A stretch of 51,739 nucleotides of DNA from Planctomycetota bacterium (lineage in GTDB: Bacteria > Planctomycetota > MHYJ01 > JACPRB01): assembly GCA_035574235.1 (NCBI GenBank), contig DATLZA010000184.1, positions 1 to 51,739 on the forward strand, in the 5' to 3' direction. The translations under genes and the position numbers were made by a program. Under the pieces are notes generated by a model. It saw only the letters and a program-made list of their open reading frames with translations, did no database searches and had not been told where the DNA came from. The first letter of the stretch is position 1; each line of letters opens with the position of its first letter. Shown here piece after piece: positions 16,972-47,959 of this stretch.

Positions 16972-17108
16972 GGCCGACCTCCCGTTTCTCACGGCCCTTC
17001 GACGCCGGGGCGGGGCGGGCGGTTCCGAAAAAGGGACCGTGCTTTTCGGGAACCGCGGGCGCGATCCTTGCGTCCAAGGAGCGAAGAGCGCGACGAAGGA
17101 GGTGGTCC

Positions 17109-18065
17109 ATGAAGCGGGCGGCCATGGCGATTCTGGGGGCGGCGCTGGCGGCGGGCGTGGCCGGCGCGCGCGATGAAGAGGGCGCATCCTGCGGTCGCTG
17201 CGGGGGGCGGACCTACGGCACGGCGGTCGTGTGGGAGGACAGTCCCTCGGAAGCGGCGCGAAAGGCCAAAGCGGAAGGGAAGCTTGTCTTTCTTCTTCAC
17301 GTCTCCGGGAACTTCGAGGACCCGCGCTTCACCTGAAACAACGCCCAGGCGTTCCGGGTGAACGCTCTGGCGAATCCCGAGGTCGGATCCTATCTCGGCC
17401 GTCATTTCGCGGCGGGTTTCCAGAAGGTCGCCACCTTCCGCATCGTCGGCGGCCAGAAGCAGGGGGGCAACGTGGCCGCCTACTTCTGCGCGCCGGACGG
17501 CCGCGTCCTTCACGCGGTGGCCGGACCGGTGGGGGCCAAGGAGCTTCTGCGCGAGGCGCGCTGGGTGGTGGACACGGCGCGAGCTGCCGTCGAGGAGGCG
17601 TCCCGCACGGGGACGCCCTTCAAGGTCCTCTTCCGCCGCCGGCACGCGGAGCGGCTCCGGGCGGAATACAGGCTCGCCGTCCAGCCGGTGGAATTCGATC
17701 CCGTCGACCCGCCGGCGGAGGGTCCTCTCACGTGGCGCGATCCGTCAGGGCGTCCTCTGGCGCCGGTTCTTCCCCCGCCTCCGGTGGACGGTCCGGACGT
17801 GTCGATCCGCCTGGCGGCCCTGGTTTCCGAAGATGCGGCCAAGGCCAAGGGGGTGGCCCGATGCGCCCCCGCTCCGGTCCAGACCCACGCCCCGCGCGTC
17901 CATCGGCTCCTGGCGGCGTACGCTCTGCTTCCTCTCGAGCGCCTCTACGGGACCGTGTTCGAGCAGATTCTGGGCGAGCGGGTGACGACGCAGCCCGTGA
18001 TCGTCGTCGGAGGGCGAAAGACCGACGTGTGCCTGCGGTGTCCGGCGCCGGCGGAGGCGAAGTAG
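17109..18065 (+). CDS. Uncharacterised thioredoxin-fold selenoprotein (in-frame TGA = selenocysteine)
   Basis: Read through the TGA at 17334-17336, this is one 318-aa protein with Sec at residue 76. It starts with ATG after AAGGAGGTG and has a signal peptide (MKRAAMAILGAALAAGVAGA), then CGRCGG, then EAARKAKAEGKLVFLLHVSGN, which looks like the start of a thioredoxin-like domain. The Sec context is R-F-T-U-N-N-A, so no resolving Cys stands at +3. The reading frame stays open and coherent after it (YFCAPDGRVLHAVAGPVGA), then a more basic C-terminal region ends with CLRCPAPAEAK. A hairpin at 17345-17370 fits a bacterial SECIS. A standard caller would report a 75-aa fragment and a separate protein from a GTG at 17358. 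Function is probably periplasmic redox; this is an inference. Confidence 0.85.
17345..17370 (+). promoter_or_regulatory. Candidate bacterial SECIS hairpin, selenoprotein 1
   Basis: Stem GCGTTC (17349-17354) / GAACGC (17360-17365) closes the 5-nt loop CGGGT (17355-17359). It is extended by CCAG (17345-17348) / CTGG (17367-17370) with one bulged T (17366), giving 10 bp in all. The loop begins 18 nt after the TGA, and a G is the second loop base. These features match the published bacterial SECIS pattern (small apical loop with an early G, 16-37 nt after UGA). Confidence 0.75.
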
Positions 18066-46177: not shown

Positions 46178-47959
46178 ATGTTTCTTTGGACAACGATTCT
46201 GGCTGTTGCCGCGGCGGCGCCGGCGCCGCAGGAGCCGGGAGGCTTCGCGCGAAAGAAGCCCGAAATCCGGATCGTCGCGATCCGTCCCGAGAAGAGCGAA
46301 GTCCGCGTGGGCGAAACCTTCCGGGTGTCCTTCGAGGTCGAAATCCCCAAGGGATGGTACATCTATCCGACCTATCCCACCACGACCGGAACGCCCACGA
46401 AATTCGTTTTCGAAGCGGCCGAGCCGGCGGGCAAGGTGGAGGAACCCAAGCCCAAGACCAAGCCGGCCGAGGCGGGACTGGAGGCGTACGATTACCACGA
46501 AGGGACGGTCACGTTCACGGTTCCCGTCTACCTCAAGCCGGGCCCGGCTCCCGGTCCTTTCGAAGTGAAGGGCCTGGTGGACTATCAGATCTGCTCGGCG
46601 GTCTGCATTCCCGCGCGGACGCCGTTTTCGTTCCCCATCGTCGTGGCGCAGGGCGAAGTTCAGCCGGCGGCGGGGGCCGAGGACTTCGAGCGCCGGGGCG
46701 TCTGGGCGCTGATCCTTCTCGGAATGACGGGTGGCCTGATCTCTCTGGTCATGCCCTGCACGTATCCGCTCATCCCGATCACGCTGACGTACTTTCTCAA
46801 GCAGGCGGCCGGATCGCGTTCGCACGGCATGGTCCTTTCCGGAGCGTACTCGCTGGGGATCATCCTGTCTTTTACGGGGCTCGGCTTTCTACTCACGATT
46901 CTGCTCGGAGCCGGCGGGGCGCGCGAGTTCGCCGCCAATCCGTGGGTAAACGTGGGCGTGGGGCTTCTGTTCCTCTGGTTCACCGGGTCGCTTTTCGGAT
47001 GGTACGAGATCCGGCTTCCGTTCGGACTGGAGTCCCGCCTCGCCGGAACGCCGCGGCAGGGCGTGGGCGGAGCCTTCATCCTGGGCCTGGTGTTTTCGAT
47101 CGTGACCTTCACCTGCACGATTCCGATCGCCGCGACGATCCTCACCTTGGCCGCCCAGGGGCACCGCCTTTCGGCGCTCATTGCGATGCTGGCCTATTCG
47201 GCGACGATGGCGCTTCCTTTCTTCGTGATGGGAATCTTTCCCGGGCTGCTCCGGGAGGTGCCCAGGAGCGGGGGCTGGCTGGGGACGGTGAAGACCTCGA
47301 TGGCGTTCGTGGAACTCGGGCTCGCGGTCTTTTATCTGTCCAAGGCCGATCAGTCCTGGGAGATCGGGGTCCTGAACCGCTGGGTGGTGCTCGCGCTCTA
47401 TACGGCGGTGGGGGTGGGCGTGGCGCTTTACCTGCTGCGCTTCTTCCGCGCGCGGCCGGGGTTCTTCCGGCTCGTCTCGGCGGGGCTGTTCCTGGCGCTG
47501 GGAGGCGTCATGGCCTACGGGTTCACGGGCCGGCGGCTGGGACTGCTGGAAACCATCGTGCCGCCGCCGCCCATCCACGGGACCACGCTTCCGGCCGGAC
47601 TGGAGGAGGCGAAGCGCCGGGGCAAACCTCTCTTCGTGGAATTCACCGGCGTCACCTGATCGAACTGCCTGGCGAACCGCGGGACGGTTCTGGCGGCTCC
47701 CGAGGTCGAGAAGATCCTTTCGGAGCATTACGTCGTGGCCGAGCTTTGGACGGACCGGAAAGGTCCCCGAAGCCGGGCGATGGACGAGGAAAACAACCGC
47801 CTGCTCAACGAGCGGTTCGGCGGGGCGCTGCCGCTCTATGTGATTTTCACGCCGGACGGGCGCGAAGTGGCGCGCCTGGGCGGCCGTCCGTCGGTGTCCG
47901 AATTCGTGGAGTTTCTGAAGAAAGGCCTCCCGGCCGCGGCGGGCGCAAGTAACCCTTGA
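46178..47959 (+). CDS. DsbD-type thiol:disulfide interchange selenoprotein
   Basis: Read through the TGA at 47657-47659, this is one 593-aa protein with Sec at residue 494. The N-terminus has a signal sequence and a DsbD-alpha-like domain ([28 protein letters not shown]). The centre is an 8-9-segment membrane domain with the paired Cys motifs [17 protein letters not shown] and [16 protein letters not shown]. The C-terminus is a thioredoxin-like domain: [15 protein letters not shown], so the active pair is U-S-N-C instead of C-x-x-C. The protein moves electrons from cytoplasmic thioredoxin across the membrane to periplasmic partners. A hairpin at 47674-47690 fits a bacterial SECIS. Confidence 0.9.
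47674..47690 (+). promoter_or_regulatory. Candidate bacterial SECIS hairpin, seleno-DsbD
   Basis: A perfect 6-bp stem GAACCG (47674-47679) / CGGTTC (47685-47690) closes the 5-nt loop CGGGA (47680-47684). The loop begins 20 nt after the TGA, with G as second loop base. Its CGGG(A/U) loop matches the hairpin after the TGA at 17334. Confidence 0.75.

Follow-up and report, generated by a model that had tools for sequence, protein, structure and literature searches.

Glutathione peroxidase, peroxiredoxin and iodothyronine deiodinase selenoproteins carry a lone selenocysteine (Sec) in a thioredoxin-type fold. Among the other described families with which the protein reported here can be compared, Thioredoxin_7 (PF13899) and Thioredox_DsbH/DUF255 (PF03190; 2lst, 3ira, 2kuc) have the thioredoxin fold and the N-terminal pattern W..dl..A...A...gKp in common with it, and the first Cys of their CxxC motif corresponds to its Sec site; they differ by the CxxC itself, in place of which the new family has Sec with G/A/S at position +3, and by the near-invariant Asn121 of the latter. 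VPGUxxT type 2 (NF041383), a selenoprotein of the Trx_7-like type, has its Sec in the equivalent position (hhalign probability 87), but it is distinguished by its VPGU motif and by a second domain. The Trx7/PDZ (seleno)protein NF041199 has a similar Trx_7 domain, combined however with a CxxU motif and a PDZ domain, whereas Sec-containing DsbD, whose Trx_7 domain has its Sec at the same site as in the new family, is a membrane-bound electron carrier with a UxxC dithiol. A 2026 inventory comprises 119 prokaryotic selenoprotein families (PMC13188914), and Sec machinery in planctomycete genomes has been described in PMC4807772, considered here without its supplementary candidate table.

We analysed a stretch of 51,739 nucleotides of planctomycete DNA (the window), in which a gene on the + strand (17109-18065) encodes a protein of 318 residues with Sec at codon 76. 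Searched alone against Pfam and PDB sequences, this protein (P0001) gave chance matches only, and none of the NCBIfam models matched it. The curated cut-offs of PF13899 and PF03190 were not reached, P0001 having no match to either; when 29 relatives were scanned singly, weak matches were obtained to PF13899 in 9/29 and to PF03190 in 7/29. For NF041383, the cut-off of 275 bits was not met, with no match for P0001 and weak ones in four of the 29 relatives (best 8e-6), and NF041199 matched family members at chance level only; both VPGUxxT and Trx7/PDZ were rejected as the identity of the family. Pfam matches to the glutathione peroxidase, peroxiredoxin and deiodinase families (PF00255, PF00578 and PF00837, respectively) were absent from all 29 members, and Table 1 of the 119-family inventory (PMC13188914) has no entry with the Sec motif of the family. 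No description was found in the open literature; closed papers, supplements and preprints were outside the scope of this search, and a listing as 'hypothetical' is not excluded. The proposal of an earlier note on this DNA, that the gene represents an undescribed selenoprotein family, is supported within the reach of Pfam, NCBIfam, PDB and the 2026 inventory, and our best reading is a thioredoxin-like family that is new, dominated by Sec and made up of exported mono-selenol proteins, export and activity being inferred.

Gene and Reading Frame

The open reading frame starts with the ATG at 17109, meets a TGA at 17334-17336 (codon 76) and continues for 242 sense codons up to a TAG at 18063-18065. 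A Shine-Dalgarno sequence, GAAGGAGGT, was read at about 17095-17103 (+), 5 nt ahead of the start codon, and the N-terminus, MKRAAMAILGAALAAGVAGA, looks signal-peptide-like by eye, with a putative Sec/SPI signal peptide spanning residues 1-20 (17109-17168, +) and ending at an A-G-A cleavage site, also identified by eye. The earlier note had described this same arrangement of signal peptide, Shine-Dalgarno, TGA and 242 further codons, and its coordinates are right.

In GC-rich DNA, an open frame of great length is weak evidence by itself. The frame that follows the TGA is not an accident of this kind, because it can be aligned with six other genomes (L002, L003, L004, L005, L006, L008) at 54-56% identity over 223-241 residues and the TGA is found at the identical codon in all of them (6/6). 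Toward the end of the protein, a C-terminal region LPPPPxDGPDV ... YGTVFExILGE (17727-18008, +) is conserved in the close subfamily (alignment A4).

Predicted Thioredoxin Fold and Active Site

AlphaFold was run with 95 family sequences (alignment A5). The predicted thioredoxin-fold domain covers residues 36-158 (17214-17582, +), with pLDDT mostly >90 and a core composed of a strand from 59 to 67, Sec76 and a helix from 77 to 84, to which strands 100-108, 122-127 and 132-138 and a helix from 143 to 167 are added. The top PDB matches in Foldseek were 3ira, 2lst, 7tkv, DsbD-gamma and DsbH; the E-values were modest (best 0.0056), with a probability of 1.0 to 2lst and 3ira and a TM of 0.67 by the length of 2lst. 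In profile alignments, Sec76 (17334-17336, +) stands opposite the first Cys of the CxxC in thioredoxin-fold families. AlphaFold and Foldseek thus agree on the thioredoxin fold that had been suggested for this protein, and a Thioredoxin_7/DsbH-like fold, in which helix 1 has Sec at its N-terminus, is strongly supported by the predicted model.

All 95 members share G67, the Sec/Cys and G139, while Arg83 (17355-17357, +) and Asn121 (17469-17471, +) are each present in 93/95; Asn121 immediately precedes the strand found after the cis-Pro of thioredoxins, the relation to the cis-Pro being inferred. The +3 position is G, A or S in 95/95 aligned members, and the CxxC/UxxC dithiol motif is not met: the lone Sec without a Cys at +3, pointed out by the earlier note for the window protein, is a property of that protein and of all 95 aligned members. 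None of the other Cys columns exceeds 36% of the members, nine of the 95 have no other Cys at all in the aligned span, and position -1 is occupied by T, C, L or S in almost every member. As there is neither a Cys at +3 nor a general second Cys, we infer a mono-selenol chemistry that would need an outside reductant. Of the description 'monothiol or peroxidase-like' previously given to the protein, the mono-selenol part is upheld and the peroxidase part remains an inference.

A different possibility, which we regard as unlikely without discarding it, is that Sec76 forms a selenosulfide with Cys31, in the flexible N-terminus, or with Cys127, at the end of strand 122-127, so that the protein would be an atypical two-residue thiol/selenol reductase. 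Both cysteines are invariant across seven close relatives, and Cys31 (17199-17201, +; alignment A4) is located at the edge of a probably mobile segment of low pLDDT; it is a possible resolving Cys, limited to the close subfamily. In the wider family, however, Cys127 is found in only 31/95 members, and the nine members lacking any other Cys in the aligned span also argue against a second redox residue. More doubtful still is that the lone selenol acts on a substrate that is neither peroxide nor disulfide, by metal or metalloid binding or by a deiodinase-like reductive dehalogenation. Deiodinases have a lone-Sec T-U motif, P0001 likewise has its lone Sec in '-T-U-', and a Cys is placed directly ahead of the Sec/Cys site in 23/95 members (L012, L013, L018, L021, L022 and others), but neither PF00837 nor any metal-binding family was matched in Pfam.

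Selenocysteine and Cysteine at Codon 76

From 99 related genomes, 25 matches were obtained, distributed over 13 of them and with a single TGA in almost every case, and these loci were read frame by frame and then aligned (A1); a profile search of 392 Planctomycetota genomes found the family in 87. In the 98 well-scoring Planctomycetota relatives that make up the tree set, the Sec column is occupied by TGA in 86, by Cys in 11 and by Ser in 1, which answers the check for a TGA-or-Cys column that the earlier note had set out. This count leaves out low-scoring, diverged forms, with three more Ser, one Ala and one Pro. Sec outnumbers Cys about 8 to 1 in Planctomycetota, and Sec, as read from the TGA codons, is the rule in the family and Cys the exception, although this holds for Planctomycetota only. 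A single-sequence scan of 84,980 species returned five relatives, all of them Planctomycetota, and a scan of plasmid records found no relatives of the family. The assignment of the window's genome to this phylum rests on the five nearest relatives that carry a name. The window gene represents a single branch within a large superfamily of planctomycetes, in which individual genomes hold many Sec paralogues.

The Sec column was masked when the tree was built; the distribution of Sec and Cys on it requires a single change, and the 11 Cys rows group together, nested in clades of 15 rows (99*) and 26 rows (97*) in which the remaining rows are all Sec. The direction from Sec to Cys is inferred from this nesting rather than from a secure root, because the outgroup of VPGUxxT and DsbD-gamma has long branches and leaves the rooting unstable. 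The Cys forms (L074-L084) read S[C]ANSRFFRTVLYAN, and the sister Sec members L018, L104, L112 and L114 read C[U]ANGR(F/Y)MRTVLYAN; in the Cys clade, the C-U pair of the Sec sisters has turned into S-C.

Seven verified Sec paralogues (L008, L021, L027, L097, L098, L099, L129) and one unverified were observed in genome G001. Five genomes of one genus (g10; L016, L029, L094, L095, L096) have two Sec paralogues of different branches side by side, both with TGA, which could possibly be partners. A distant member with a vicinal Cys-Sec, GRC[U]GGAYALRAGSLS, occurs in the window's own genome (L093, G000:C104). Ser at the Sec column was seen in the diverged paralogues L085, L086, L089 and L091, which are probably redox-dead and belong to genomes that also carry Sec members.

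SECIS Hairpin

According to the published rule, a bacterial SECIS (bSECIS) has a loop of 3-9 nt with a G in the first two positions, at 16-37 nt from the UGA, an upper stem of 4-16 bp and an MFE <= -7.5 (PMC13188914). The hairpin of the window (17342-17372, +) consists of a 7-bp upper stem (17348-17354/17360-17366, one G-U pair) with the apical loop CGGGU (17355-17359), a 2x2 internal loop and a 4-bp lower stem (17342-17345/17369-17372). With this loop beginning 18 nt past the UGA, the 7-bp stem and an MFE of -16.6 kcal/mol, it meets the rule. The 10-bp hairpin with a CGGGT loop that the gene had been credited with is thus real and correct in its loop, but was described loosely, in view of the interrupted stem. 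The energy of the hairpin does not rise above that of dinucleotide shuffles (z -0.75) and was rejected, as not significant, as a proof of SECIS; since the single-sequence energy is ordinary, the case rests on covariation within the family.

In the seven close relatives, the window-type hairpin is paired in 87.8% of cells, compared to 26-59% in slid versions, with just two pairs in the close subfamily showing changes on both sides. The 76 more distant Sec members have a 6-bp hairpin with a CGUGAC-type loop at a spacing of 23 nt, the loop in the window's subfamily being five nucleotides closer to the UGA. This wider-family hairpin is paired in 90.6% of cells, compared to 26-65% when slid, and cells with a double change number 48 against 15.2 +/- 2.8 in shuffles, 48 being reached in 0/500. 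A bacterial SECIS was therefore supported on both counts, the published rule being met and the pairs covarying across the family.

The full six-pair hairpin is found in 59/85 Sec genes and in 0/11 Cys genes, and the predicted SECIS is missing from all Cys members. The conserved Arg at the +7 codon is encoded by AGA/AGG in 59/85 Sec genes and by CGC in 10/11 Cys genes; we attribute the predominance of AGA/AGG in Sec genes to a codon requirement of the stem. When folding was compared with synonymous-codon shuffles, Sec genes folded better than Cys genes (mean z -0.49 and +0.78, respectively; p 1.7e-4).

Selenocysteine Machinery

The window's bin encodes selA (568 bits), selB (341 bits), a tRNA-SeC with anticodon UCA (68.9 bits, ARAGORN) and two selD (G000:C10:1530-2444 and G000:C165:30105-31013); selA, selB, selC and selD, which the earlier note had proposed to look for in the same genome, are all present. 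One of the two selD has an in-frame TGA (Sec-containing SelD) and the other does not. The bin contamination of 4.66% makes a foreign origin of the sel genes possible in principle. Across genomes of the phylum, selA was found in 46/52 of those with a strong Sec-form match vs 195/340 of the others (Fisher p 6e-6). The six Sec-form genomes without selA are bins, 67-91% complete and in 290 to 990 contigs, and selA is still present in 8/11 genomes with Cys forms.

At the level of sequence comparison, which is the only level addressed here, it is established that relatives either retain UGA at codon 76 or have Cys there instead, that the SECIS covaries and that Sec machinery is encoded. A non-selenoprotein, with the TGA explained by genuine termination, by a sequencing error or by codon reassignment, and the downstream likeness by a decayed or separate gene, finds support in the ordinary energy of the window hairpin but is practically untenable, being already contradicted by the comparison of genomes, in which the TGA is shared by 86 relatives and replaced by Cys in 11, the covarying SECIS is lost in Cys forms, the sel machinery is complete and UGA serves as a stop elsewhere (e.g., 47957-47959). 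Recoding to Trp or to another residue was ruled out by the aligned residue, which is Cys, and by the use of UGA as a stop elsewhere.

Discussion

Our results make us highly confident that the gene encodes a full-length, exported mono-selenol thioredoxin-fold selenoprotein, which would be oxidised by a peroxide or thiol substrate and would depend on an outside reductant, its export and activity being inferred. We propose that, after export to the periplasm, Sec would act as a mono-selenol nucleophile, with possible assistance from the helix dipole and from Arg83 and Asn121, both near-invariant; a peroxide or an oxidised thiol substrate would then oxidise it to a selenenic acid or to a mixed selenosulfide, and an outside thiol donor would return it to the reduced state. 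Peroxide reduction and mixed-selenosulfide exchange are our joint first choice for the activity, an assignment that could go either way in the absence of enzyme data.

DsbD proteins carry reducing power into the periplasm, and for this reason an exported selenol enzyme could plausibly be reduced by the DsbD encoded in the window, whose UxxC likewise contains an in-frame TGA; this link is inferred. The gene of this DsbD (46178-47959, +) lies ~30 kb away, has the Pfam domains DsbD_N, DsbD_TM and Thioredoxin_7, and is coding up to 47956, with a true TGA stop at 47957-47959. The in-frame TGA, at 47657-47659, is in the context FTGVT[U]SNC and is followed by a possible hairpin of ordinary energy; this DsbD is probably the second selenoprotein of the window. 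The gene described here is isolated, with a divergent VIT/VWA gene as one neighbour and a convergent minus-strand gene as the other. No conserved operon was found among relatives, the VIT/VWA neighbour being common only with the same-family genome G001.

On balance, we lean towards a phylum-scale family of exported, thioredoxin-fold mono-selenol enzymes in which Sec is ancestral and near-obligatory, paralogues have radiated within genomes, and Cys has arisen once from Sec with the loss of the SECIS. If true, this would invert the common pattern of Cys homologues being far more numerous than Sec forms. Annotation normally truncates such genes at the TGA, so that the planctomycete Sec radiation would be missing or represented by short hypothetical fragments, and most discovery pipelines seek TGA/Cys pairs, so that a nearly all-Sec family would be overlooked. 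In the nested Cys clade, the switch is accompanied by the disappearance of both the SECIS and the rare Arg codon, and the existence of sister Sec and Cys enzymes (e.g., L018/L104 vs L074-L084) would make the question of why Sec is kept directly testable.
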